Source: Bacteroidota bacterium (GTDB lineage: Bacteria; Bacteroidota; Bacteroidia; UKL13-3). From it: 64,000 nt of DNA. Shown here one piece after another: positions 14,129 to 46,300 of the stretch. Positions within the stretch are counted from its first letter, which is position 1; the number at the start of each line of letters is the position of its first letter. Where the stretch lies: positions 124,001 through 188,000 of the forward strand of contig JAZKBU010000009.1 in assembly GCA_040388375.1 (NCBI GenBank), in the 5' to 3' direction. The translations under genes were made by a program, and so were the position numbers. A model generated the notes under the pieces. It was not told the DNA's origin. It worked only from the letters and a program-made list of their open reading frames with translations, and made no database searches.

Positions 14129-16978
14129 ATGTCAAATAGAAAAACCCTTGCCTTATATAGTAAATTGTTTTTATTGCTTTTTATCGCTAGTACCAGCATT
14201 ATAAAAGCTCAATCGGTAGAACAAGTTACCGCGCAGTTTGTTAGCAAAAACAATAACGAGAATTTAATTGGTTTAGTAGCTACTTTAATCAACGTAAGCG
14301 ATACCAATCAAAAACATAAAGTAAGCAGCAATGAAAATGGTATAGTTACTTTTACCAAACTACCTGCCGGTAACTATATACTCAGAACAAATTATATAGG
14401 TTTTAAAAGTTTTATTAGTTCCGTAAAAATTGATAGTAACACCAAATATTTAGGTGTTTTTAAATTGGAAGAAGGCACTACACAACTGAAAGATATTCTT
14501 ATACAGGAGCAAGCATTACGCACACAAATAAAAGGCGATACCATAGAAATAAATGCCAATGCTTACAAAACAAATACGGATGCCAGCGTACAGGATTTAG
14601 TTACCAAAATGCCCGGTATTACTAATGACAACGGAACGATAAAAGCACAAGGAGAAAATGTGCAAAAAGTAACTATTGATGGCAGAGAATTTTTTGGTGA
14701 TGATGTAAACTTAGCGCTTAAAAACCTACCGGCTGAAATAGTAGATAAAATTCAGGTATTCGACAGACAAAGCGACCAATCGTTATTTACCGGATTTAAT
14801 GATGGCAATACACAAAAGGCTTTGAACATAGTAACCAAAGCGGGCAAAAGCAATGGAAGTTTTGGAAAAGTGTATGGCGGCTATGGTACCAACGACAGGT
14901 ATTCAGCAGGAGGCAATATTAATTTTTTCAGAGGCAAACAGCGTATAACAGTTGTGGGCTTAAGTAATAACATCAATCAACAAAACTTTTCATCGCAAGA
15001 TTTAGTAGGCGTTTCCAATAACTCCACAGCACCCGGACGAGGAGGTATGGGAGGAGGAATGCGCGGTGGACCCGGAGGAATGCGTGGTGGACCCGGAGGT
15101 GGTGATAACCCAAGCAATAACTTTATTACATCCAACCTGGGAGGTATTAATACTACCAACTCTCTTGGTGTTAATTTTAGCGATTCGTGGGGTAAAAAAG
15201 TAAACTTTACAGGTAGTTATTTCTTTAACAAAAGTGTAAACAATACTGACAATTCAATTGAAAGAATTAACTTTTTCAGTGATGGAAAAAATCAATTTTA
15301 CAAACAAACAAGCAGTACCAATACTGATAATTTAAACCACAGACTTAACTTTAGAATTGAATACAATATTGACAGCAATAACACTTTATTAATTACACCT
15401 AAATTAAGTTTTCAGAACAATACTTCCAGTACTTATTCCTTAGGTAATACTACCCTATCTAATTCCACTTTAAACAGTACTGATAACTTTAATAACTCAA
15501 CGAATAATGCAGTAAGCTTTAACAACAATATTTTGTACCGCCATAAGTTTTCAAAGCCCGGCCGTACCATTAGCTTATCGGTGGGAACAGACATCAATGA
15601 TAAAAATGCACAAACTGATTTAGTTACCAAAACTATTTATTACTCCACTACGGACTCCGTGGTTAATAACAACCAAAGAAGTACTACTTTAAACAATAGT
15701 TATACTTTAAACGGAAGCATTAACTACACACAGAATATTAGTAAAAATGGTATGTTAATGCTTAATTATTCACCATCGTATACCAATACGAATAATAACA
15801 AGCAAACAAATTTGCTGGATACTGCTACGCAAACATATACTATACCCAATAGTACGCTTTCAAGTAATTTCGATAATGTTTTAATGACACAACGTGGAGG
15901 TGCTAATGTAAGATGGAGATGGAACGAAAAAACCAACTTAATGATTGGTGGAAACTACCAATATGTAATATTAGAAGGGGCTCAAAAATCGCCCATTGAA
16001 TATAAAATAAACAAATACTTCAATTCTGTTTTACCTAACGCCATGTTAAGCCATCAGTTTAGTAAAAAAAGTAATATTCGCCTTTTTTACAGAACCAGTA
16101 CCAATGCGCCAAGTGTAACTCAACTGCAAACGGTTATTGACAATAGTAATCCATTATTACTATCAACAGGAAATGCCAATTTAAAACAAGAATACGCACA
16201 TTCTTTTACTACCAGATACGGTTACACCAATACGGATAACAACAGAAGTTTTTATTTATTTTTAAATGGAAACACGACTCAGGATTATATAGCCAATACG
16301 AGCTTAATAGCCAAGGATAGCAACACGGTTATCAATGGCGTTCAATTAGCCCAGGGAACCCAATTAACGCTTCCTGAAAACATGAATGGAAACTGGAGTG
16401 TAAACAGTTTTGCTACATACGGTTTGCCTATTAAAAAACTAAAGAGTAATTTAAATATTAATGGTGGTGTATCATATACCCGCACACCAAGTAAAATAAA
16501 TAATTTAGTCAATTTAGCCAGTAACTATACCATTACCACCGGAGGTGTGCTTGGGAGTAATATCAGTGAAAAAATTGATTTCACTATTTCGTATACTGCC
16601 AATTATAGCATAGTTGAAAATAGCGTACAAGCCAATTTAAACAACAACTATTTAAATCAACTATCAAGCATAAAACTAAATATAGTTCCTTATAAAAACT
16701 GGGTTATAAGAAGCGATATAAGCAATACAAACTATACCGGATTAAGTGCAAGCTTTAACCAAAATTTCTTTTTATGGAGTGGAGGAGTTGGTTATAAGTT
16801 TTTGCAAAACAATGCTGCTGAACTAGCCTTAAATACTTTTGATATTTTAAACCAAAACAACAGCATTAGCCGTACGGTAAGCGGTAATTATATTGAAGAC
16901 AACAAAACACTGGTATTAAACCGCTATTTTATGTTGGTGTTTACCTATAACATACGCTCATTCAAAGGGGCTAAATAA
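14129..16978 (+). CDS. Outer-membrane beta-barrel receptor, TonB-dependent-receptor-like with carboxypeptidase-like domain
   Basis: 949 residues: signal peptide (1-27, ending KAQS), a carboxypeptidase-D-like regulatory domain (about 30-115, with GIVTFTKLPAGNYILRTNYIGF), a plug-like region (about 120-235, with TDASVQDLVTKMPGI and IDGREFFGDD), then a long beta-barrel rich in N/S/T with alternating strands. A glycine/arginine-rich insert (GGMGGGMRGGPGG motif, about residues 302-327) sits in what is probably a surface loop. The C-terminal strand ends YFMLVFTYNIRSFKGAK. Bacteroidota genomes hold many such receptors; the ligand cannot be named. No SusD partner is adjacent. It is 62 bases after the kinase gene, with a bidirectional terminator downstream. 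Confidence 0.85.
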   Translation: MSNRKTLALYSKLFLLLFIASTSIIKAQSVEQVTAQFVSKNNNENLIGLVATLINVSDTNQKHKVSSNENGIVTFTKLPAGNYILRTNYIGFKSFISSVKIDSNTKYLGVFKLEEGTTQLKDILIQEQALRTQIKGDTIEINANAYKTNTDASVQDLVTKMPGITNDNGTIKAQGENVQKVTIDGREFFGDDVNLALKNLPAEIVDKIQVFDRQSDQSLFTGFNDGNTQKALNIVTKAGKSNGSFGKVYGGYGTNDRYSAGGNINFFRGKQRITVVGLSNNINQQNFSSQDLVGVSNNSTAPGRGGMGGGMRGGPGGMRGGPGGGDNPSNNFITSNLGGINTTNSLGVNFSDSWGKKVNFTGSYFFNKSVNNTDNSIERINFFSDGKNQFYKQTSSTNTDNLNHRLNFRIEYNIDSNNTLLITPKLSFQNNTSSTYSLGNTTLSNSTLNSTDNFNNSTNNAVSFNNNILYRHKFSKPGRTISLSVGTDINDKNAQTDLVTKTIYYSTTDSVVNNNQRSTTLNNSYTLNGSINYTQNISKNGMLMLNYSPSYTNTNNNKQTNLLDTATQTYTIPNSTLSSNFDNVLMTQRGGANVRWRWNEKTNLMIGGNYQYVILEGAQKSPIEYKINKYFNSVLPNAMLSHQFSKKSNIRLFYRTSTNAPSVTQLQTVIDNSNPLLLSTGNANLKQEYAHSFTTRYGYTNTDNNRSFYLFLNGNTTQDYIANTSLIAKDSNTVINGVQLAQGTQLTLPENMNGNWSVNSFATYGLPIKKLKSNLNINGGVSYTRTPSKINNLVNLASNYTITTGGVLGSNISEKIDFTISYTANYSIVENSVQANLNNNYLNQLSSIKLNIVPYKNWVIRSDISNTNYTGLSASFNQNFFLWSGGVGYKFLQNNAAELALNTFDILNQNNSISRTVSGNYIEDNKTLVLNRYFMLVFTYNIRSFKGAK

Positions 16979-32817: not shown

Positions 32818-32961
32818 TGATTTAAACCAATTCAACTCAGCCTATAACAAAAACTTTCTTTTCTTGTGAGTTGGTCCTATTTTTTTATTCATTTGAATTC
32901 ATTAACAATTTGCATTATATATGCAATATAAAACTCATTGTCAATCATTTCAATTTCGTTT

Positions 32962-35900
32962 ATGCCAATAAAAAACGTAATAACCCTAGCTTTTATTTTA
33001 ATTACCGCTATAGCTTATGCCCAGGATATTGATAGCAATAAAAAACTTTCTTATAACAAACAGTTTTTTATTGAAAACAAAGGGCAATGGCCCGATGAAG
33101 TATTATTCATGACCAAAACCAATGGCATGGATGCATGGATTACCAAAACCGGTGTTGTTTACGACTTTTACCAATTAATTGAAAATGAAAAAACCAGTGA
33201 GTTAACATCGGAAAAGGGGCAACAAAACTTTAAGGACAAAAAAGGACATGTGGTAAAGTTTAACTTATTACAATGCAATAAAAATGTAATACCGGAAGGT
33301 AAGGATAAACAGGAAGCTTATTATAATTATTTTATTGGCAATGATAAAAGTAAGTGGGCTAGTTTTGTGAGCTTATACCACGAAGTTGTTATAAAAAATA
33401 TTTACAATGGAATTGATATCCGTTATTATTTTGACAATGGTGCTTTAAGATATGATTATATAGTAAACCCCGGTGCTGACCCCAAACAAATTCAGTTTAA
33501 TATGGAAGGTGCTGACCAAATTAGTTTAAACAATGTAGGGGAAATAGTTATAAAAACAACCATTGGCGAAACAAAACAAACAGGACTTTTTAGTTACCAA
33601 AACCTCCACCATAAAAAACAAGCTATTACTAGTTTTTTCAGCAAACTAAGCCCACAAACTTTTGCCATTGCGCTTGGGAGTTATGACAATAGTAAACCGT
33701 TAATTATTGACCCTTTGGTGTTTTCTACTTTTTTAGGAGGAACCGGTGACGATTGTGGTATAGCTATTAAAACTGATGCTTTTAATGCTGTTTATGTATC
33801 AGGGTACACTAATAGTAGCAACTACCCAATTGTTGCAGGATCATACGCTATTTTCAAAAATAATAACTATGATGTTTTCGTAACCAAGTTAAATAGTAAC
33901 CTTAACACTCTTACATACTCAACCTTTATTGGTGGTGTCAGCGATGACATTTTATTTGATTTAACAATTGATAGCAGTTTAAATATTTATATTACAGGCT
34001 CTACAAGGTCAAGCAATTATCCAACCACAATAAATGCTTACGATACCAGCTTTAATAATACCACAGCCTATGAGGATGTGTTTATTACCAAATTAAATCC
34101 TTCAGGTAGTGCGCTTATTTTTTCAAGCTATTTAGGTGGAAGCCAAAAAGATAAAAGCAAAAGAATTATCCTTGACAAAGAACGTAACATTTATATTGCC
34201 GGTTACACGCAATCAACCAACTTCCCTAAAACTGCAGGTGCTTTTACAAACAGTTATAATAACATTAACCTGTTTATAACCAAATTAGATGCCTTGGGCA
34301 GCAGTTTAATTTTCTCTACAACATTAACAACCATACCAGGCTCTCCGTATAGTGGTAATAATACTTATTATGGAGATTTGGCTATTGATGACAGTTCCTA
34401 TATTTATGTAGCTACAAATGGCGCCAGTAACCGTCTTCCTTACCCCGGTATTAATAACAATTTTGGGCCCGGTAACCATATTTCTCTTCTTAAACTGGAC
34501 CCTTCCTGCACCAACCCAATATACCTTACCCAGTTTGGAGGAAACTCAAAAACGACTGATATAGTAGCTGCTATTGCTATTGACCAATCACAAAATGTTT
34601 ATATTACAGGAACAAATATGGCTGAAGGTATCGGAGTTAATACTTTTCCAACAACTACGGGTGCATTTTCCAGAACAAATACCGGAGGGTATGATGTGTT
34701 TGTGGCTAAATTTAACCAAACCGGGGGAGTTGTATACTCTACCCTTATTGGCGGACCTGCACAGGATTATGTATCTGAAATTAATATTGATGAAAACAAT
34801 AATGCTATTATTTGTGGGTTTTTAAGTCTTTATTCTGGCACTATTCTACCTATTTTCCCTACCACTTCCAATGCTTTTGATACTTCTTTTAATGGTTCCG
34901 ATTACAGAGAAGATGGCTTTATTACCATTTTTAATGAAACAGGTTCTGCTCTATTGTATTCAAGCTATATTGGCGGAAACAGTATTGATTATGCCTATGA
35001 TTTATGTTATGCAAACAATGCTTCAATACTGGTTACAGGGAGTACTAACAGCTTTAATTTCCCCACTACTCCGGGTACTTTCAGAACAATTATCAGTTCA
35101 AGTTCATCAGATGCTTTTGTTTTCAAAATAAATAAATGCCCTTTCAATTTAAACCAACAACCTGTTAGTCAAAGCATTGTTACCAACAACAATGTATCTT
35201 TTAATGTTATCGCCAGTAGCCCTACTACTACCTTCCAATGGCAACAAAATGCAGGGTCAGGGTTTGTTAATCTCTCTAATGCAGGAGTGTATTCAGGAGT
35301 AAACACCAATACTTTAAATATTAATAGTATTAATTTTTCTAAAAATAATTACCAATACAGATGTGTAGCTACCGACAGTGGTTGCAGTATTAATAGTGTA
35401 CATGCCAAACTTTTGGTCAACTGCCTCTTTAACATTACAAGACAACCCGTTAGTCAAAATATTAATATTGGTACCAATACCAGTTTTTCTCTTGAAGCAT
35501 CTTCAAGCACTGCTACTTTTCAATGGCAACAAAATAACGGTTATGGGTTTGTAGATATTAGTAACAACTCTCTATTTTCCGGTGTTAATGATGATACTTT
35601 AATCATTAACTCTACCCCACTTTCATTTAATAATAATTCTTTCAGGTGTATTGTTTCCGATAATGCATGTTCTGTGGTTAGTAATCCCATAAGCCTAAAT
35701 GTAAACTGTACACTTGCTATTACCAAACAACCTGTTCCAACAAGCATTAATATCAGAAACAATACCCAGTTAATAACCAATGTTAATAGCACAAATGCAA
35801 CCTTTCAGTGGCAACAAAGTTTAGGAACAGGGTTTACCAATTTAAGTAACAGTAGTACTTTTAGCAATGTAAACGATGATACCTTGCTCATTAATAATGC

Positions 35901-37683
35901 TCCACTCTCATTAAACAATACCCGATACCGTTGTGTTATTAATGACGGACCTTGCAGTAAAATTTCTGATTCCATTTTACTCAATGTAAACTGCTCCTTA
36001 GCTATCAATACACAACCTGTCAATAAAAATATTCCTGCTGAATCTAACACCATTATGAGTATTACAGCTTCAGGATTTGCTACTACTTTTCAGTGGCAAC
36101 AAAATACAGGTAGTGGGTTTGTTAATTTAACCAATAACAGCACATTTTCTAATGTGGATGATGATACACTCATTATTAATGCTGCTCCTAAAAGTTTAAA
36201 CAATACCACTTACCGTTGTATTGTGAATGACGGACCTTGTTCTCTTGCCAGTAGCAGCGCTACACTCAATGTATATTGTGTCTCTTCCATTACCAGACAG
36301 GTAAACAACACAAATATAATTATTGGTTCAAATGCACTGTTTTCTGTTGCTTCTGCTAATAACAATGCTACTTTTCAATGGCAGCAAAATGAAGGAACAG
36401 GATTTGTAAATATTTATAACAACTCCACCTTTAGCGGCACCAATGACGATTCTCTAACCCTAATTGCTACAACTATAGCCCAAAACAACAATACCTATCG
36501 GTGCTTAATCAACAATGAATCTTGTATTGATACCAGTAATAGTGGGACACTAACAATTAGTTGCCCGTTTAATATTACAGGTCAACCACAAAACCAAACT
36601 ATTAACAATGGTGGTAGTGCTCAATTCATAGTGCAGGTCGATAGTAATGTTTCATACCAATGGCAGCAAAACACAGGAACCGGGTTTGTTAACATTAGTG
36701 ACAATAGTTTATTCAGTGGTACCAACAATGATACACTTATTTTAAACGGGGCTTCTTTTTTATTGAATAATAATACCTACAGATGTTGGATAACATTAAA
36801 CAATTGTTATACCTATAGTATCCCTGCATTATTAAATATAAATTGCATTTCTTCTATTACTTTACAACCTCAAAACCGAACTATTAATCAGGGAGACACT
36901 ACATCTTTTATTGTTCATTCCAATAATCCTGCAGCTACATTCCAATGGCAAATAAACAAAGGTAATGGCTTTACAAATATTAGTAATGATAATACATTTA
37001 ATAATGCTAATAACGACAGCTTAATTATTAACAAAGTCCCATCCAGTATGAATAATAATATGTTTAGATGTATTATAAACAACAACAATTGTTTTGATAC
37101 GACTAACAATGTTGTTTTAACAGTTAACTGTCTACTTGCCATTACTCAACAGCCTGTAAATAAATCCGGTAAAGTTAATGAAAGTACATTTTTTTGCGTT
37201 ACTTCCTCAGTTAACAGTTTCGTGTCATTTAAATGGCAAGTCAACTATGGTTCAGGATTTTTGGCAATACAAAACGATGCTACTTATAGTGGCGTAAATC
37301 AAGATACACTAAAAATAAAAAAAATATCCCCAGTTTTTAATAATTGTAAATACAGAGCCATTGTATATACTACCAATTTATGTTGTTGTTCTGATACCAG
37401 TAATGCTGCCATACTACAAGTATCTAATATTGGCACAAATGAGTTAAGTAATAGTTATTTCAATATTTATCCTAACCCTAATAACGGGCATTTTTTAATT
37501 GATGAACTGCCTGATAATGCCGTTATTACTATTACAGATTTGGCGGGTAAAACCATTGCTGAAATAAAAACCAACGATAACAAAATTAATGTTGACTTAA
37601 GTAATAAAGCGGATGGCATGTATTTAGTAAAAGTAGAATCACTGAATTATAGTGCTATTAGAAAAGTAAATATTACTAAATAA
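32962..37683 (+). CDS. Giant secreted SBBP beta-propeller / Ig-repeat protein with T9SS sorting domain (paralogue 1)
   Basis: About 1573 residues from ATG 32962; the longest frame uses TTG 32938, but the ATG gives a clean signal peptide (MPIKNVITLAFILITAIAYA, then Q). Domains: an N-terminal DUF7948-type region (KQFFIENKGQWPDEVLFMTK, about 33-250), a SBBP-type beta-propeller (about 253-720, repeats of FSTFLGG...AYVSGYTNSSNYP), eight Ig-like repeats of 95 residues (35137-37416) and a T9SS type A sorting domain (NIYPNPNNGHF to the C-terminus). Predicted to be exported by T9SS and surface-bound or released. The only close relative visible is paralogue 2 just downstream. Each Ig repeat has three Cys. 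Function unknown; adhesin or matrix role is inference. Confidence 0.9.
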   Translation: MPIKNVITLAFILITAIAYAQDIDSNKKLSYNKQFFIENKGQWPDEVLFMTKTNGMDAWITKTGVVYDFYQLIENEKTSELTSEKGQQNFKDKKGHVVKFNLLQCNKNVIPEGKDKQEAYYNYFIGNDKSKWASFVSLYHEVVIKNIYNGIDIRYYFDNGALRYDYIVNPGADPKQIQFNMEGADQISLNNVGEIVIKTTIGETKQTGLFSYQNLHHKKQAITSFFSKLSPQTFAIALGSYDNSKPLIIDPLVFSTFLGGTGDDCGIAIKTDAFNAVYVSGYTNSSNYPIVAGSYAIFKNNNYDVFVTKLNSNLNTLTYSTFIGGVSDDILFDLTIDSSLNIYITGSTRSSNYPTTINAYDTSFNNTTAYEDVFITKLNPSGSALIFSSYLGGSQKDKSKRIILDKERNIYIAGYTQSTNFPKTAGAFTNSYNNINLFITKLDALGSSLIFSTTLTTIPGSPYSGNNTYYGDLAIDDSSYIYVATNGASNRLPYPGINNNFGPGNHISLLKLDPSCTNPIYLTQFGGNSKTTDIVAAIAIDQSQNVYITGTNMAEGIGVNTFPTTTGAFSRTNTGGYDVFVAKFNQTGGVVYSTLIGGPAQDYVSEINIDENNNAIICGFLSLYSGTILPIFPTTSNAFDTSFNGSDYREDGFITIFNETGSALLYSSYIGGNSIDYAYDLCYANNASILVTGSTNSFNFPTTPGTFRTIISSSSSDAFVFKINKCPFNLNQQPVSQSIVTNNNVSFNVIASSPTTTFQWQQNAGSGFVNLSNAGVYSGVNTNTLNINSINFSKNNYQYRCVATDSGCSINSVHAKLLVNCLFNITRQPVSQNINIGTNTSFSLEASSSTATFQWQQNNGYGFVDISNNSLFSGVNDDTLIINSTPLSFNNNSFRCIVSDNACSVVSNPISLNVNCTLAITKQPVPTSINIRNNTQLITNVNSTNATFQWQQSLGTGFTNLSNSSTFSNVNDDTLLINNAPLSLNNTRYRCVINDGPCSKISDSILLNVNCSLAINTQPVNKNIPAESNTIMSITASGFATTFQWQQNTGSGFVNLTNNSTFSNVDDDTLIINAAPKSLNNTTYRCIVNDGPCSLASSSATLNVYCVSSITRQVNNTNIIIGSNALFSVASANNNATFQWQQNEGTGFVNIYNNSTFSGTNDDSLTLIATTIAQNNNTYRCLINNESCIDTSNSGTLTISCPFNITGQPQNQTINNGGSAQFIVQVDSNVSYQWQQNTGTGFVNISDNSLFSGTNNDTLILNGASFLLNNNTYRCWITLNNCYTYSIPALLNINCISSITLQPQNRTINQGDTTSFIVHSNNPAATFQWQINKGNGFTNISNDNTFNNANNDSLIINKVPSSMNNNMFRCIINNNNCFDTTNNVVLTVNCLLAITQQPVNKSGKVNESTFFCVTSSVNSFVSFKWQVNYGSGFLAIQNDATYSGVNQDTLKIKKISPVFNNCKYRAIVYTTNLCCCSDTSNAAILQVSNIGTNELSNSYFNIYPNPNNGHFLIDELPDNAVITITDLAGKTIAEIKTNDNKINVDLSNKADGMYLVKVESLNYSAIRKVNITK
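33756..33977 (+). repeat. 222-base identical block shared with paralogue 2 (copy 1)
   Basis: Identical to 39195-39416 (offset 5439) in the first part of the beta-propeller, and bounded by single-base differences at both ends. Confidence 0.9.
35008..36485 (+). repeat. 1478-base identical block shared with paralogue 2 (copy 1)
   Basis: Same as 40450-41927 at a constant offset of 5442. Translations of all frames I compared (sense and two antisense frames) are the same in both copies. It spans the last propeller segment and Ig repeats 1-4 and most of 5. Flanking DNA differs at many silent positions. Confidence 0.9.
35137..37416 (+). repeat. Tandem array of eight 285-base Ig-like repeats
   Basis: Period 285 bases (95 residues): each unit runs from a Cys in [LV]NC..I..QP, through FQWQ-x-N-x-G-x-GF, to YRC-x6-C. 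Eight WQ motifs are counted. Nucleotide similarity between units is low apart from the motif regions, so the array is old, except for the block shared with paralogue 2. Confidence 0.85.
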
Positions 37684-37782
37684 AAATAATTTTGTTAGTA
37701 ATATTTCTCAGGACTATATCTATTTTTTATTAATTAATTTATTCAAATTCGTCATTATTTTCAAAATAATATGGGTAAAGTT

Positions 37783-37790
37783 TATACTTG
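37783..37790 (+). promoter_or_regulatory. Probable -7 box for folK
   Basis: TATACTTG (one change from TAnnTTTG). A TTTTC tract lies 20 bases upstream. Only six bases separate the box from the ATG at 37797, suggesting a leaderless mRNA. A TTG at 37788 lies inside the box. Confidence 0.4.
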
Positions 37791-37796
37791 CAGCGT

Positions 37797-38279
37797 ATGA
37801 ATCAGGCATTTGTTTTATTAGGTAGTAATATGGGTGACAAAAAAGACCATTTAGATACCGCTATCCATCATATTATTGCTAATAACTGCCTGCTTGTTAA
37901 TCAATCATCAGTATATAAAACGGCAGCTTGGGGTAATACGGAGCAAGATGACTTTTTTAACCAGGTAGTTGAAATCAATACCTCGCTAAGCGCTGAACTA
38001 TTGCTGAAAACATTGCTTGAAATAGAAACTAAAATGGGACGTACCCGGATACAAAAATGGGAACCCCGTATTATTGATTTGGATATTTTATTTTTCAACA
38101 ATGCCGTTATTAATACTGCTGATTTAAAAGTACCTCACCCCTACTTACATGTTAGAAGATTTACATTGCTTCCATTACATGAAATAGCACCTTATTTTGT
38201 GCATCCTGTATTTAATGAAAACGTGCACGAGCTTTTAGCCAATTGTGAAGATAAAAGTACTGTTGAAATAATCATTTAA
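37797..38279 (+). CDS. folK: 2-amino-4-hydroxy-6-hydroxymethyldihydropteridine diphosphokinase FolK
   Basis: Transfers pyrophosphate from ATP to 6-hydroxymethyl-dihydropterin in folate synthesis. 160 residues from ATG 37797 (MNQAFVLLGSNMGD); a TTG at 37788 is rejected as part of the -7 box. Motifs: LGSNMGDKKDHL, VYKTAAWGNTEQDDFFNQVVE, and the ATP/pterin loop RTRIQKWEPRIIDLDILFF (about 81-99) followed by PHPYLHVRRFTLLPLHEIAP. Complete family length. It lies alone between the two giant paralogues. Confidence 0.96.
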   Translation: MNQAFVLLGSNMGDKKDHLDTAIHHIIANNCLLVNQSSVYKTAAWGNTEQDDFFNQVVEINTSLSAELLLKTLLEIETKMGRTRIQKWEPRIIDLDILFFNNAVINTADLKVPHPYLHVRRFTLLPLHEIAPYFVHPVFNENVHELLANCEDKSTVEIII

Positions 38280-38391
38280 AACAAGCAATCAGGCAAATTA
38301 CTACTCCCGTAAAATGTATTGTTTTTGTAAAAAATAATACTTATTTATGCAATATTAAACTCATTTTCAGCCTGTTTACAATTATTTTATT

Positions 38392-41300
38392 ATGAAAAAA
38401 CTGATTAGCCTACTGCTTGTCTTTATTGCTTTATATGCTCAGGCACAAGAAACACCTGACTTAAAAAAAGTACAAGGGTTATTACATAAAAATAACAAAC
38501 AGTTTTTTATTGAAAACAAAGGTCAATGGCCCGATGAAGTATTATTCATGACCAAAACCAATGGCATGGATGCCTGGATTACCAAAACGGGTGTTGTTTA
38601 CGACTTTTATCAATTAATTGAAAATGGAAAAACCAGTGAGTTAGCATTGGAAACAGAGCAACAAACTTTTAAAGAAAAAAAAGGCCATGTGATAAAGTTT
38701 AACTTATTACAATGCAATAAAAATATTATACCAGAAGGTAATTATAAACAGGAAGCTTATTACAATTATTTTATTGGCAATGACAAAAGTAAGTGGGCTA
38801 GTTTTGTAGGTTTATACAATGAGGCTATTGTTAAAAACATATACGGGGGGATTGATATACGCTATTATTTTGACAATGGCGCTTTAAGATATGATTATAT
38901 AGTAAACCCAAATGCAGACCCTTCACAAATTAAATTTAATATTAACGGTACTGACAAAACAAGCATTGATAATAATGGAGATTTAATTGTTCAAACCAGT
39001 TTAGGAGAGGTTAAGCAAACCAAATTATTTACTTACCAAAATATAAACAATACCAAACAAACTATTAATAGCCATTTTGCTTTACTAAAAGATGGCTCTT
39101 ATACTTTTACTTTAGGTACATACAATAAAAGCAAACCATTAATTATTGACCCTTTGATTTTCTCTACTTTTTCAGGTGGAACCGATAACGATTATGGTAT
39201 AGCTATTAAAACTGATGCTTTTAATGCTGTTTATGTATCAGGGTACACTAATAGTAGCAACTACCCAATTGTTGCAGGATCATACGCTATTTTCAAAAAT
39301 AATAACTATGATGTTTTCGTAACCAAGTTAAATAGTAACCTTAACACTCTTACATACTCAACCTTTATTGGTGGTGTCAGCGATGACATTTTATTTGATT
39401 TAACAATTGATAGCAGCTTAAATGTTTATATTACTGGATCTACAAGGTCTAGTAATTATCCAACCACGGTAAATGCTTACGATACCAGTTTTAATAATAC
39501 CACAGCCTACGAGGATGTGTTTATTACCAAATTAAATCCTTCCGGTAGTGCTTTAGTTGTTTCAAGCTTTTTAGGTGGGAGCCTGGCAGATAAAAGTAAA
39601 AGAATTATACTTGACAAGGAACGAAACATTTATATTGCCGGTTACACAAAATCAACTGACTTTCCTAAAACTTCAGGTGCTTTTACAAATAGTTATAATA
39701 CCAGTAACCTATTTATAACCAAATTAGCTGCTTCAGGTAACAGCTTAGTTTTCTCTACAACATTAACAACTATATCCAGTTCACTATTTAGTGGTAATAA
39801 TACTTATTATGGAGATCTGGCTATTGATGACAGTTCCTATATTTATGTGGCTACAAATGGGGCCAGTAATCTTCTTCCCTCTCCCGGTATTAATAACAAT
39901 TTTGGGCCCGGTAACCATATTTCTCTTCTTAAACTGGACCCTTCCTGCACCACACCTTTATACCTCACACAGTTTGGAGGAAACTCAAAAACGACTGATA
40001 TAGTAGCTGCTATTGGTATTGACCAATCACAAAATGTTTACGTTACAGGTACAAACATGCCTGAAGTAACTGGAATAAATACTTTTCCAACAACTCCGGG
40101 TGCCTTTTCCAGAACTAATACCGGGGGCTATGATGTGTTTGTGACTAAATTTAACCAAACCGGAGGAATGGTATACTCTACCCTTATTGGCGGACCTGCA
40201 CAGGATTATGTTTCTGAAATTAATATTGATGAAAACAATAATGCTGTTATCTGTGGGTTTCTAAGCCTTTACCTGACTACTATTCCACCTGTTGTTTTCC
40301 CTACCACTTCCAATGCTTTTGATACTTCTTTCAATGGCACGCTCTCTAATGAAGATGCATTTATTACCATACTTAATGAAACAGGTTCTGCTTTGTTGTA
40401 TTCAAGCTATATTGGTGGAACAACCCGTGATTATGCCTATGATTTAGCCTATGCAAACAATGCTTCAATACTGGTTACAGGGAGTACTAACAGCTTTAAT
40501 TTCCCCACTACTCCGGGTACTTTCAGAACAATTATCAGTTCAAGTTCATCAGATGCTTTTGTTTTCAAAATAAATAAATGCCCTTTCAATTTAAACCAAC
40601 AACCTGTTAGTCAAAGCATTGTTACCAACAACAATGTATCTTTTAATGTTATCGCCAGTAGCCCTACTACTACCTTCCAATGGCAACAAAATGCAGGGTC
40701 AGGGTTTGTTAATCTCTCTAATGCAGGAGTGTATTCAGGAGTAAACACCAATACTTTAAATATTAATAGTATTAATTTTTCTAAAAATAATTACCAATAC
40801 AGATGTGTAGCTACCGACAGTGGTTGCAGTATTAATAGTGTACATGCCAAACTTTTGGTCAACTGCCTCTTTAACATTACAAGACAACCCGTTAGTCAAA
40901 ATATTAATATTGGTACCAATACCAGTTTTTCTCTTGAAGCATCTTCAAGCACTGCTACTTTTCAATGGCAACAAAATAACGGTTATGGGTTTGTAGATAT
41001 TAGTAACAACTCTCTATTTTCCGGTGTTAATGATGATACTTTAATCATTAACTCTACCCCACTTTCATTTAATAATAATTCTTTCAGGTGTATTGTTTCC
41101 GATAATGCATGTTCTGTGGTTAGTAATCCCATAAGCCTAAATGTAAACTGTACACTTGCTATTACCAAACAACCTGTTCCAACAAGCATTAATATCAGAA
41201 ACAATACCCAGTTAATAACCAATGTTAATAGCACAAATGCAACCTTTCAGTGGCAACAAAGTTTAGGAACAGGGTTTACCAATTTAAGTAACAGTAGTAC

Positions 41301-44300
41301 TTTTAGCAATGTAAACGATGATACCTTGCTCATTAATAATGCTCCACTCTCATTAAACAATACCCGATACCGTTGTGTTATTAATGACGGACCTTGCAGT
41401 AAAATTTCTGATTCCATTTTACTCAATGTAAACTGCTCCTTAGCTATCAATACACAACCTGTCAATAAAAATATTCCTGCTGAATCTAACACCATTATGA
41501 GTATTACAGCTTCAGGATTTGCTACTACTTTTCAGTGGCAACAAAATACAGGTAGTGGGTTTGTTAATTTAACCAATAACAGCACATTTTCTAATGTGGA
41601 TGATGATACACTCATTATTAATGCTGCTCCTAAAAGTTTAAACAATACCACTTACCGTTGTATTGTGAATGACGGACCTTGTTCTCTTGCCAGTAGCAGC
41701 GCTACACTCAATGTATATTGTGTCTCTTCCATTACCAGACAGGTAAACAACACAAATATAATTATTGGTTCAAATGCACTGTTTTCTGTTGCTTCTGCTA
41801 ATAACAATGCTACTTTTCAATGGCAGCAAAATGAAGGAACAGGATTTGTAAATATTTATAACAACTCCACCTTTAGCGGCACCAATGACGATTCTCTAAC
41901 CCTAATTGCTACAACTATAGCCCAAAATAATAATACTTATCGGTGCTTAATAACTAACGGCTCCTGTATTGATACCAGTAGTGTTGGTTTGTTAACGGTA
42001 ACCTGTATTTTAAATTTCACATCACAACCCTCTAGTCAATCCATTAATAATGGGGAAAATGCACAATTTATTGTTATTGCAAACAGCCCCAATGCAAATT
42101 ACCAATGGCAGCAAAATACAGGGTCTGGTTTTATTAATATTAGTAACAATATCTTATTCAGTGGTACCAACAACGATACACTTATTTTAAACGGGGCTTT
42201 TTTTTTATTGAATAATACTACCTATCGATGTATCATTAATCTTAATGGATGTTACGTAAACAGTAATAGTGCTACGTTAATTATTAACTGCCCTGCATCT
42301 ATTACCATGCAACCAAACAACCAATCTACGAACATTAGCAATAATATCTCATTTATTGTTAATTCTAATAATCCAACAGCAGTGTTTCAATGGCAGGTAA
42401 ACACTGGTGCAGGTTTTATCAATTTAAATAACAATACTCAATTTAGCGGAGCAAACAATGATACGCTTGGTATAAACAACGTTTCCTTTACCCAAAACAA
42501 CCATTTATATAGGTGCATTATTAATAACAATGGGTGCCGAGATACTAGTAACAATGCAACTTTAACAGTTAGTTGTGATTTAAATATTACCGGTCAACCA
42601 GTTAATAAGAATGTTTCTATTGGAACCAATACCTTGTTTGTAGTTAATAGTAACTATACTTTAGCACAATTTCAATGGCAAATAAACAATGGAACCGGAT
42701 TTGTAAACTTAAGCAACAACAGTACTTATAATGGTTGTAATGATGATAGTTTAATAGTAAATGGAGTGGCTATGTCAATCAATAATACAAGCTATAGATG
42801 TGTGGTTTCTTATTTAGGTTGTTCCGTAATGAGTAATAATGTGTTATTAACAGTTAATTGTATTGGGTTTATTATTAATCAGCCTAATAACGTTACTGCT
42901 AATATTCGTACCAATGTCAGCTTTGCCATCACGGCTCCTGTTTCCACCCTATTTCAATGGCAACAAAACAGTGGCTCAGGATTCACCAATCTAAGTAACA
43001 GCAGTCAAATAATCGGTGTCACCGATAATGCACTGTATTTGTTAACTATAAACCGATCTCAAAATAGTTTTTCTCACAGATGTATTACCTCTTACAAGGG
43101 ATGCACTGATACCAGTAATATTGTTAATCTTACTGTAAATTGTGTGTCTCTCATAAGTACACAACCAATTAACAAGAGCGTAAATGTTGGTGCGAATACT
43201 TCTTTTGAAATTGCCTCTGGCTTAATTAATTCAAGCTTCCAATGGCAAAGTAATAATGGAAGTGGATTTAATAACATAAATAATAGCAGTCAATTTAGCG
43301 GAGCAAATAGTAATATATTAAACATTAGCAGCGTTAGTCTATCACAAAATAATACTACGTTTAGATGTATTGTAAGTAATTCAGGATGTTATGATACCAG
43401 CACTGTAGCAAGTCTTTCAGCTAACTGCATTTCTACAATTATTAATCAACCGGTTAATAAAAGTGCTAATGTTGCTGGCAATACACAATTCACTATTAAT
43501 TCTTCCAATATCAATGCAGGTTTTCAATGGCAAGTTAATAATGGAAGTGGGTTCAACAACATTACCAGTAACAGTCAATTTAGCGGTACCAATAGCAATA
43601 CATTGACGATTAACAGTATTCAACTTGCTCAAAACAATAATACGTTTAGATGTATAGTTAATAATTTAGGTTGCTATGACACTAGTAATGTGGCAACATT
43701 AACTGCCAATTGTACATCTTACATTAACAAACAGCCTAATAATATACAAGTAAATATTGGAGCTCTTGCTTTTATAATTATTACTTCTTCAAATAATACC
43801 TCTACCTTTCAATGGCAACAAAATACAGGAACTGGGTTTGTTGATTTAAACACCTCTGGTTTATATAATGGAATAAATAATGATACATTTGTTATTACTG
43901 CTACACCTCTATCTTTTAATAATTATGGATACAGATGTATTGTAAATACAAATGGCTGTTTTGACACTAGTAATATTGCTATTCTAACTGTTAATTGCAA
44001 CTTAAATATATTGTCACAACCTACTCCATCTACCGTTAACAGTGGGAGTAGTTCAAAATTTATTATTAAATGTAATAGTGTAACTGCAACCTACCAATGG
44101 CAACAGAATACAGGGACTGGATTTATTAATATTATCAATAGCTCATTATTTAACGGTGCAAAAGATGATACATTAGAAATTGTGAGCGCAAATATGTCAT
44201 TAAACAATAACTCTTTCAGGTGTATTATTACGGATGGCATTTGTACCACTACCAGTAATGAAGCTAACCTAACTGTTAATTGTTTTATAAATTTTGTCAA

Positions 44301-45393
44301 TCAACCAACCAGTATAACAAAAGGCGTAGGTCAAGATGCAATTTTCTTTACCAATACCAATAGTACTACTGCAACCTATCAATGGCAGGAAAACAATGGT
44401 AGTGGATTTGTAAATTTAAATAATAATGTACAATATACAGGAGCCGATACAAAATATTTAACCGTAAACAGAGTAACTAAGAGCCAAAATGGTAATAGCT
44501 ATCGTTGTATTGTTAGCGATGGCATTTGCCAGTTCTACAGCAATACTGTTTTTCTCAATACCAATTGTGCCCCACTTATTGTTATACAACCAAATAATTC
44601 AAATGCTACCAGTGGAGGCAATGTTACTTTTAGTATTACCAGTATTAATAATCTTACTAATTACCAATGGCAGGAAAACAATGGCGGAGGGTTTGTGAAC
44701 TTAAGCAATAATAGCCAATATAGTGGAGCAAATTTGAGTACATTAACTATTAATACAGTTAGCATTACACAAAACAATTATTTATATCGCTGTATTACTA
44801 ATTATGGTGGTTGTAGTGATACCAGTTCAAATGCTAAGCTGATTATAAACTGTGCAAGACTAATTACAACACAACCACAGAGCGCATCAGTACCTGTGGG
44901 TAATAATGCTCAATTCCACATACAAACTTCAGGTAGTAGTCTTAATTTTCAATGGCAGCAAAATAACGGAACAGGATTCATTAACTTAAGTAATTTTGGA
45001 ATATATAATGGTGTAAATAAAGATACATTAACCATTAATAATGTAAACTTATTAATGAACAATAATGGTTATCGTTGCGTAGCATATAATAGCACCTGCT
45101 TCGATACAAGTAGCTACGCCATCTTAAATGTAATTAATACTGGCACAAAAAATATTATAGAAAACACCATCAATATATACCCTAATCCTAACAATGGACA
45201 ATTTAAAATAGATGGGTTACCCAATAATGCCACCATTGTAATTACTAATTTATTAGGAGAAACCATAAGCACACAACAAACCAATAACAAAGAAGTAACG
45301 ATAGACTTAAATAATGTGGCTGACGGTATGTATTTAGTAAAAGTAGAGGCGGATAACTACAGTATGACCAGAAAAATTACAATTGCAAAATAA
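38392..45393 (+). CDS. Giant secreted SBBP beta-propeller / Ig-repeat protein with T9SS sorting domain (paralogue 2)
   Basis: 2333 residues, 7.0 kb, the longest gene here. ATG 38392 gives a signal peptide (MKKLISLLLVFIALYAQAQE). Domains as in paralogue 1: DUF7948-type region (about 35-250), SBBP beta-propeller (about 262-725), then sixteen Ig-like repeats of 95 residues (40579-45138), exactly twice paralogue 1, and a T9SS type A sorting domain (NIYPNPNNGQFKIDG to VKVEADNYSMTRKITIAK). Repeats 1-5 match those of paralogue 1 exactly through most of repeat 5; repeats 6-16 are diverged, although repeat 6 shares a strongly similar core. It starts 112 bases after folK. The upstream sequence TATTAAACTCATT resembles that of paralogue 1. 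Function unknown; extracellular adhesion or biofilm role is inference. Confidence 0.9.
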   Translation: MKKLISLLLVFIALYAQAQETPDLKKVQGLLHKNNKQFFIENKGQWPDEVLFMTKTNGMDAWITKTGVVYDFYQLIENGKTSELALETEQQTFKEKKGHVIKFNLLQCNKNIIPEGNYKQEAYYNYFIGNDKSKWASFVGLYNEAIVKNIYGGIDIRYYFDNGALRYDYIVNPNADPSQIKFNINGTDKTSIDNNGDLIVQTSLGEVKQTKLFTYQNINNTKQTINSHFALLKDGSYTFTLGTYNKSKPLIIDPLIFSTFSGGTDNDYGIAIKTDAFNAVYVSGYTNSSNYPIVAGSYAIFKNNNYDVFVTKLNSNLNTLTYSTFIGGVSDDILFDLTIDSSLNVYITGSTRSSNYPTTVNAYDTSFNNTTAYEDVFITKLNPSGSALVVSSFLGGSLADKSKRIILDKERNIYIAGYTKSTDFPKTSGAFTNSYNTSNLFITKLAASGNSLVFSTTLTTISSSLFSGNNTYYGDLAIDDSSYIYVATNGASNLLPSPGINNNFGPGNHISLLKLDPSCTTPLYLTQFGGNSKTTDIVAAIGIDQSQNVYVTGTNMPEVTGINTFPTTPGAFSRTNTGGYDVFVTKFNQTGGMVYSTLIGGPAQDYVSEINIDENNNAVICGFLSLYLTTIPPVVFPTTSNAFDTSFNGTLSNEDAFITILNETGSALLYSSYIGGTTRDYAYDLAYANNASILVTGSTNSFNFPTTPGTFRTIISSSSSDAFVFKINKCPFNLNQQPVSQSIVTNNNVSFNVIASSPTTTFQWQQNAGSGFVNLSNAGVYSGVNTNTLNINSINFSKNNYQYRCVATDSGCSINSVHAKLLVNCLFNITRQPVSQNINIGTNTSFSLEASSSTATFQWQQNNGYGFVDISNNSLFSGVNDDTLIINSTPLSFNNNSFRCIVSDNACSVVSNPISLNVNCTLAITKQPVPTSINIRNNTQLITNVNSTNATFQWQQSLGTGFTNLSNSSTFSNVNDDTLLINNAPLSLNNTRYRCVINDGPCSKISDSILLNVNCSLAINTQPVNKNIPAESNTIMSITASGFATTFQWQQNTGSGFVNLTNNSTFSNVDDDTLIINAAPKSLNNTTYRCIVNDGPCSLASSSATLNVYCVSSITRQVNNTNIIIGSNALFSVASANNNATFQWQQNEGTGFVNIYNNSTFSGTNDDSLTLIATTIAQNNNTYRCLITNGSCIDTSSVGLLTVTCILNFTSQPSSQSINNGENAQFIVIANSPNANYQWQQNTGSGFINISNNILFSGTNNDTLILNGAFFLLNNTTYRCIINLNGCYVNSNSATLIINCPASITMQPNNQSTNISNNISFIVNSNNPTAVFQWQVNTGAGFINLNNNTQFSGANNDTLGINNVSFTQNNHLYRCIINNNGCRDTSNNATLTVSCDLNITGQPVNKNVSIGTNTLFVVNSNYTLAQFQWQINNGTGFVNLSNNSTYNGCNDDSLIVNGVAMSINNTSYRCVVSYLGCSVMSNNVLLTVNCIGFIINQPNNVTANIRTNVSFAITAPVSTLFQWQQNSGSGFTNLSNSSQIIGVTDNALYLLTINRSQNSFSHRCITSYKGCTDTSNIVNLTVNCVSLISTQPINKSVNVGANTSFEIASGLINSSFQWQSNNGSGFNNINNSSQFSGANSNILNISSVSLSQNNTTFRCIVSNSGCYDTSTVASLSANCISTIINQPVNKSANVAGNTQFTINSSNINAGFQWQVNNGSGFNNITSNSQFSGTNSNTLTINSIQLAQNNNTFRCIVNNLGCYDTSNVATLTANCTSYINKQPNNIQVNIGALAFIIITSSNNTSTFQWQQNTGTGFVDLNTSGLYNGINNDTFVITATPLSFNNYGYRCIVNTNGCFDTSNIAILTVNCNLNILSQPTPSTVNSGSSSKFIIKCNSVTATYQWQQNTGTGFINIINSSLFNGAKDDTLEIVSANMSLNNNSFRCIITDGICTTTSNEANLTVNCFINFVNQPTSITKGVGQDAIFFTNTNSTTATYQWQENNGSGFVNLNNNVQYTGADTKYLTVNRVTKSQNGNSYRCIVSDGICQFYSNTVFLNTNCAPLIVIQPNNSNATSGGNVTFSITSINNLTNYQWQENNGGGFVNLSNNSQYSGANLSTLTINTVSITQNNYLYRCITNYGGCSDTSSNAKLIINCARLITTQPQSASVPVGNNAQFHIQTSGSSLNFQWQQNNGTGFINLSNFGIYNGVNKDTLTINNVNLLMNNNGYRCVAYNSTCFDTSSYAILNVINTGTKNIIENTINIYPNPNNGQFKIDGLPNNATIVITNLLGETISTQQTNNKEVTIDLNNVADGMYLVKVEADNYSMTRKITIAK
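39195..39416 (+). repeat. 222-base identical block shared with paralogue 1 (copy 2)
   Basis: Partner of 33756-33977. The 3-base change of offset relative to the larger block reflects indels between the two identical blocks. Confidence 0.9.
40450..41927 (+). repeat. 1478-base identical block shared with paralogue 1 (copy 2)
   Basis: Partner of 35008-36485. The first difference on the left is the codon GCC versus TGT; on the right a silent T for C in the last identical AAAA run. Confidence 0.9.
40579..45138 (+). repeat. Tandem array of sixteen 285-base Ig-like repeats
   Basis: Same unit as in paralogue 1; sixteen WQ motifs are counted. The total length is close to 16 x 285 bases, so indels within units are few or balance out. 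Confidence 0.85.
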
Positions 45394-45400
45394 ACCAAAA

Positions 45401-46300
45401 CTATTTATTGATAGCTTCGTATTTAGTAGCATTGGATATATCCAATTCACTCAGCAGTTCCACAATTTTTGGTTTTTCTATGGGTGTTGCTCCTGTGTAT
45501 ATATTGATTAATTCATCGCGTTTGGCATCGAAAAACATGAGCATCATAACGGTATTTGGTGCTAACTGAAATAAACGTTTTACTTCTTCTAACGATTTAT
45601 AAATTTGTTTCCTGGCCTCTAATGGTTTCTTGTAAAAATTATCCATCCCTTTTCTATGGTAAATATAGTAGGCACTACGAATGGGTTTGAAACGTTCATT
45701 TAAAATATTATCAATTAAATTGTAACGCGTACGCAAACTACGCCCAAAAGCCGCCCAACCTGCAGCGCCACCACTTTGCGATAATGATACAATTTGTGAG
45801 GCTTTGTTAAAATAAGGTGTACCTGCTTCTAAGCCAAAACTATCGTAATCTAAGCCAAGCGAGTAATAGGCATAAAAGGCTAACAGAGCTGTAATTTCTG
45901 ACGAGTACTGCCCATCGTTATAATCAAAGCGTTGCTGGTCTATATAAGTAAAATTGAAATTCTCATCCCTGAAATTAAACAATATACTATTGTAGTTACT
46001 TCCAAAAACAGGTCTTCGACATTGGACTACTGCTACAGCTGAAATAGCTCCGCTCACTTGGTCGTAAGCTGATGGAATAATCTCTATACTTAAATCGAAT
46101 AATTCCGTGGCTTGTAACCTATCTACACTCCATTTCTGATTAGAAACAAAAGTCTTTATATCTTGCTCTAACCTTCTAAATATTGATTTATCAGTAACGT
46201 TTATTTGATTATCAGTAATTCGTACTTGTACATTAAAATCTGGCTGAGCTTGCACAACAAAACTCACAAACAGACAAAAACCTAAAAATAATTTACGCAT
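45401..46300 (-). CDS. DUF4835/PorD-like secreted protein
   Basis: 299 residues with signal peptide (MRKLFLGFCLFVSFVVQAQ). It matches the DUF4835 family (QPDFNVQVRITDNQINVTDKSIF, then LEQDIKTFVSNQKW, and LDYDSFGLEAGTPYFNKA), which NCBI names as PorD-type in T9SS-bearing Bacteroidota. Predicted to be periplasmic or outer-membrane associated. The start overlaps the coaBC stop by 8 bases, so it is translationally coupled at the end of the bamD-rpoZ-coaBC series. The T9SS link fits the two T9SS cargo proteins encoded next door. The name PorD comes from family annotation, not from direct evidence. Confidence 0.8.
   Translation of the reverse strand: MRKLFLGFCLFVSFVVQAQPDFNVQVRITDNQINVTDKSIFRRLEQDIKTFVSNQKWSVDRLQATELFDLSIEIIPSAYDQVSGAISAVAVVQCRRPVFGSNYNSILFNFRDENFNFTYIDQQRFDYNDGQYSSEITALLAFYAYYSLGLDYDSFGLEAGTPYFNKASQIVSLSQSGGAAGWAAFGRSLRTRYNLIDNILNERFKPIRSAYYIYHRKGMDNFYKKPLEARKQIYKSLEEVKRLFQLAPNTVMMLMFFDAKRDELINIYTGATPIEKPKIVELLSELDISNATKYEAINK

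Follow-up and report, generated by a model that had tools for sequence, protein, structure and literature searches.

The gene pair and its surroundings

The window, that is, the whole stretch of 64,000 nucleotides analysed here, contains two very large genes, named A and B in the following, which lie in tandem with folK between them:

32938..37683, + strand: gene A, an open reading frame of 1581 amino acids with putative signal peptide, DUF7948, SBBP repeats, 8 Ig-like units and a T9SS type A tail
37788..38279, + strand: folK (HPPK), between A and B
38392..45393, + strand: gene B, 2333 amino acids, with the architecture of A but 16 Ig-like units

The probable true start of gene A is the ATG at 32962. 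In both proteins, the DUF7948, SBBP, Ig and T9SS type A tail regions score above the Pfam/NCBIfam cut-offs, with the exception of one I-set match in A, which has no separate stretch of its own. The T9SS type A sorting domain reaches 40.6 and 47.6 bits with TIGR04183 (cut-off 23) and is also above the cut-off of PF18962, while the N-terminal signal peptides were read by eye from the translations. The Ig units are about 95 residues long (Ig_3, E 5.6e-21 and 1.6e-44). A structure model of unit A2, for which 20 units were aligned, has a pLDDT of 94.8 and a pTM of 0.85, and its best solved matches in a PDB comparison are animal Ig domains, the top one being Ig5 of Robo1 (E 1.4e-5). By this architecture, the proteins are likely to act as a surface adhesin or stalk.

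Upstream of A, a 29-base segment (32915..32943, + strand) matches 38341-38369 at 26 of 29 positions, a score that none of 1000 shuffles preserving base composition only could reach, and the homology of A and B thus extends upstream of the genes. As paralogues, A and B are old and collinear, and the surface protein that they encode, exported by the T9SS, consists of DUF7948, an SBBP propeller and an Ig stalk. Directly 3' of B, on the opposite strand, lies a DUF4835 gene (45401-46300), a family which we take to include the T9SS protein PorD; if so, a gene of the secretion system stands beside two genes for T9SS cargo.

Identical tracts in A and B

An exact-match comparison of the two genes confirms to the base the two identical blocks that the initial annotation had described, one of 1478 of 1478 and one of 222 of 222 bases:

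33756..33977, + strand: 222-base tract, copy in A, at the start of the propeller region
39195..39416, + strand: 222-base tract, copy in B, exact match
35008..36485, + strand: 1478-base tract, copy in A, from the end of the SBBP propeller to most of Ig5
40450..41927, + strand: 1478-base tract, copy in B, exact match

Both tracts occupy homologous, in-register positions of A and B. The remaining direct exact matches of at least 40 bases in the window, which are 50, 70, 46, and 41 bases long, are likewise all between A and B. The offset between the genes is 5439 bases for these short matches and the 222-base block, and 5442 for the 1478-base block. The edges of the long tract fall within the last propeller repeats and within Ig5, neither of which is a module border. 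Along the stalk, the two genes stay in register on either side of the tract's end: units A1-A4 equal B1-B4 in DNA, after which nucleotide identity declines to 94% for A5/B5, 70% for A6/B6 and 63% for A7/B7; A8 is without a clear partner in B (best B12, 59%). Non-corresponding units of A and B are mostly 53-61% alike, and the other Ig units of the two genes 53-68%.

In the whole genome, the long tract is complete in two copies only and has no third; the four further partial matches to it (36-153 bases, 70-92%) are all confined to the 3' portion of B. A different kind of repeat in the window is a 21-base tandem repeat at 15053-15099 (2.2 copies, 96% match), inside the open reading frame 14129-16978.

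Silent divergence along the pair

The two genes were aligned by codons, identity was scored in windows of 40 codons, and silent differences were then counted per segment, the segment borders for these counts and for the chi-square comparison being picked after the window profile had been viewed. In the 40-codon windows, the tracts are at 100%, most of the other 5' part at 57-96%, and the part 3' of the long tract at 52-82%. Three segments outside the tracts are delimited as follows:

33460..33755, + strand: strongly diverged segment, dS ~1.1, between an intermediate segment and the 222-base block
33978..35007, + strand: segment of intermediate divergence, dS ~0.38, containing the 70-base exact match at 34444-34513
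36486..37300, + strand: diverged 3' Ig units of A, with silent sites near saturation except in a short patch at 36691-36810

From the 5' end, 11 of 48 silent sites differ at 33085-33360 (dS ~0.27); 33361-33459 delimits a further segment in the counting, and at 33460-33755, which is poorly alignable so that the count is rough, the figure is 36 of 61. In the 222-base tract it drops to 1.0 of 47, which comes from one codon straddling the edge (dS 0), rises to 71 of 238 at 33978-35007, and drops again to 1.0 of 322 in the 1478-base tract, also from one edge-straddling codon (dS 0). Beyond it, 35 of 43 silent sites differ at 36486-36690 and 74 of 100 at 36811-37300; both are saturated, and both counts are rough because the genes are poorly alignable from 36486 on. 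The silent differences in the adjacent sequence that had been reported at the outset are thus borne out, since the flanking segments differ at 23-82% of their silent sites. Silent divergence near zero within the tracts and sharply higher on both sides is the pattern by which a gene conversion tract is recognised.

Chance is rejected as the origin of the identity: when the 1208 silent-informative codons were shuffled 10,000 times, no identical run was longer than 101 codons, against an observed run of 493, which takes in a few codons just beyond the 1478-base block. For the 222-base block, shuffling the 524 informative codons at 33085-35007 matched the observed run of 76 once in 20,000 trials. 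The four segments outside the tracts are themselves heterogeneous in silent divergence (chi-square p ~1e-19, with borders picked post hoc), and 33460-33755 differs from both of its neighbours (p 2e-4 and 4e-5). No significant difference separates 33085-33360 from 33978-35007 (p 0.38), so that the about three classes of silent divergence along the pair (0; 0.3-0.4; above 1) are classes of divergence, not a count of events. The segment 33460-33755 is read as unconverted background, and 33978-35007 either as an older exchange or as later divergence from a common ancestor.

The segment 33978-35007 has a dN/dS of ~0.2, and this conserved flank is under purifying selection. The proposal that the pair would be a diversification locus finds no support in view of this value and of the fact that exchange makes the copies alike.

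Distribution in relatives and the position of folK

Among 64 genomes of the family, which were also the ones that a search at order level covered, the A/B pair is found only in its own genome (N-terminal part, E <= 1e-90), and at E <= 1e-60 an N-terminal homologue occurs in 5 of 58 relatives, its own genome included, and in 0 of the 9 others of the genus. Other DUF7948 genes are present in 10 of 10 genomes of the genus; the four in the own genome are 25-27% identical to the pair over the N-terminal region. The nearest homologue outside the species is ~40% identical over part of the query (34% in a scan of genome contigs), and a scan of viral contigs returned no homologue of A or B. The pair is therefore species-specific as far as the examined genomes show.

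The folK gene begins 104 bases after A and ends 112 bases before B. A single copy is found in the genome at E <= 1e-20, and folK was detected in 8 of 10 genomes of the genus, one copy each. Its surroundings in seven relatives include neither an A/B homologue nor an M20 neighbour, two of these seven contigs being short (7.8 and 3.7 kb); in one relative (L062), a DUF4835 gene lies ~7 kb from folK. A reciprocal crossover between the direct repeats within one chromosome would delete 5442 bases including folK, and the loss of the sole folK, which serves folate synthesis, would presumably be lethal without a supply of folate, so that the exchanges which persist should be conversions or duplications of a transient kind.

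Origin of the identical tracts

The initial annotation had claimed a recent exchange between A and B, and this stands as the best explanation, since the silent sites are identical up to sharp edges, beyond which the flanks are diverged. In its specific form, which we hold to be quite probable, homologous gene conversion acted between the old paralogues A and B, with a second event for the 222-base tract and earlier, decayed events elsewhere. By homologous recombination, a stretch of one gene would recently have been copied to the matching place in the other, giving rise to the 1478-base tract; the copying would be non-reciprocal gene conversion, presumably RecA-dependent. A second event would account for the 222-base tract, and the segments of intermediate divergence could be earlier exchanges that have since decayed. 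The in-register position of the tracts, their sharp edges, their near-zero silent divergence and the patchiness elsewhere fit conversion better than duplication. Mechanism, non-reciprocity, number of events and their relative ages are what we infer from this pattern. Exchange probably occurred more than once, judging from the sequence comparison, and the conversion may have run in either direction between A and B, given how distant the nearest homologue outside the species is.

An unlikely alternative is that the tracts differ by some SNPs and that the assembler merged them to one consensus, which it placed twice. The genome consists of 34 contigs (3.97 Mb, 98.3% complete). Among 54 contig ends and small contigs that were compared, 10 read as N, and among the 44 readable ones, contigs overlap end to end by exactly 55 identical bases in 11 cases and by 69 in one, which points to a de Bruijn assembly with k=55; such a pattern of end overlaps is presumably that of SPAdes-type assemblers. 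The rRNA operon is cut as well, the only 16S gene found being near the end of a contig (C3) at whose end the 23S is interrupted. According to the rnaSPAdes paper, SPAdes collapses bulges, including those from allele differences (PMC6736328), and SNPs between the tracts may thus be lost. Nevertheless, collapse needs close copies. By simulation, a divergence of up to ~1% would be likely to vanish if the bubble limit were 110-150 bases, of up to 2-3% if it were 220, and of up to 3-5% if it were 330-440, these limits being assumptions and not the settings of the actual run, whereas the 108 bases to each side of the tract show differences of 21% and 35%. Moreover, the 466 bases between the 222- and 70-base repeats are 13% different and stayed unmerged; 34514-34887, where the comparison crosses a one-codon gap, was left out. 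Since 1-5% at most would vanish and the flanks differ by 13-35%, the step in divergence is real even with a few hidden SNPs, and the tracts are at least nearly identical. Of the concern about assembly collapse raised with the first description, what remains is that the k=55 signature leaves exact identity unproven, while near-identity and gene order are well supported.

Within the window, the k=55 graph has three repeat edges (222, 70, and 1478 bases), each used at most twice, and the condensed graph allows four Eulerian paths, on the assumption of exactly two occurrences of each repeat. All four have the left flank, the middle (3' part of A, folK and 5' part of B) and the right end in common; only the two inner segments between the 222-, 70- and 1478-base repeats are interchangeable. 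As all paths keep this order, the contig could span the repeat without long reads, and the tracts keep their places.

Elsewhere in this genome, contig C17 (L088, L119; 42,372 bases) begins and ends with one and the same 55-base sequence, in the same orientation, a feature to be expected if the contig were circular, for instance a plasmid or phage. The start of C20 (L091) is a tandem array of ~240-base units with 85-88% identity, the end of C19 (L121) has units related to it (~77-85%), so that a single repeat gene may span the junction of the two contigs. Both ends of C14 (L085, L116) bear similar short tandem repeats of ~30 bases, 90-98% alike. About 1.45 kb of C27 (L128) resemble the start of C7 (L079) at 84%, with 55 bases in common at the end of C27, and are possibly a divergent repeated element.

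A recent partial duplication or unequal crossover, which would either have added a duplicated block to the second gene or have created the pair itself, is quite improbable. The tandem layout in the same orientation would suit it, and duplication is a trivial source of identical DNA. Both copies, however, are in register with collinear homologous sequence on either side, so that nothing was inserted and a simple insertion of a duplicated block is out; a single duplication cannot account for silent divergence at levels as different as 0, 0.3-0.4 and above 1 within the same pair; and no folK remnant was found upstream of A, where the score was below the shuffle mean. Selection that holds the block identical, through an overlapping function at the DNA or RNA level or a strong codon constraint, would agree with an identity limited to a defined part of the genes, but is very improbable, as immediately 3' of the tract, where the Ig codons are of the same kind, silent sites are near saturation, by which codon constraint is rejected, and as the other Ig units of both genes are so much less alike. 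A mis-join, with pieces of A and B mixed up during assembly, has the four possible graph arrangements on its side and is scarcely credible even so, because the swap of the inner segments leaves the tracts in place in every one of them.

A further, rather doubtful idea concerns folK as a lock. Crossovers that fuse A and B would also delete folK and be lost, so that the pair could not collapse; it would be homogenised repeatedly by conversion or be transiently amplified, with folK dosage rising alongside, and in living populations exchange would still be going on at the tract as a hot spot.

Comparison with known systems

The phenomenon itself is already known, and the A/B pair is a further case of it. 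The closest known case is that of the shared adhesin domains of hagA, rgpA, and kgp in Porphyromonas gingivalis, which have identical adhesin repeats in common that automated assembly leaves unresolved, and for which the authors of that study propose gene conversion as a source of surface protein variation (PMC5266723). Like A and B, these genes encode T9SS surface proteins of Bacteroidota with identical repeats between genes that defeat short-read assembly (PMC5266723); the near-identical catalytic domains of RgpA and RgpB are named along with them as a comparison. In P. gingivalis, however, whole adhesin modules are common and re-ordered between strains and loci, whereas the long tract of A and B ignores module borders. 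The domain types also differ (CAD/DUF2436 in P. gingivalis, DUF7948, SBBP and Ig here), and the A/B pair, known here from one genome, stands in tandem around folK, unlike hagA, rgpA, and kgp.

Other bacteria are well known to vary their antigens through segmental conversion, as with msp2 of Anaplasma, vlsE/vmp of Borrelia and tprK of Treponema, in which copying between paralogous surface genes is segmental and non-reciprocal (PMC4534519). A and B would share this mode, their non-reciprocity being our reading of the pattern. A cassette-type system was considered and rejected for the pair, which consists of two full-length open genes with neither a silent donor set nor a single expression site; beyond these two genes, the genome has no complete copy of the tract, and its other DUF7948 genes are only distantly similar. 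Concerted evolution of bacterial duplicates, for example of the tuf genes and rRNA operons, is homogenising conversion between two intact copies. A and B resemble these in both respects, and differ from them in that the conversion is partial and patchy and affects a fast-evolving surface gene.

A literature search found no paper on this gene pair or on DUF7948 proteins, and in the genome paper of Flavobacterium psychrophilum (PMC5808330), "gene conversion" occurs in the reference list only.

Significance

For assemblies of this type, the locus illustrates how a contig from a de Bruijn graph with k=55 can extend through a repeat of 1.5 kb and that "exactly identical" should then be read as "at least nearly identical". 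For the biology of T9SS surface proteins, the pair, which comes from a lineage other than the oral pathogens, is a clean natural case of segmental conversion between two very large surface genes. Within this one pair, exchange has several apparent ages, and the gene caught between the repeats is presumably essential.
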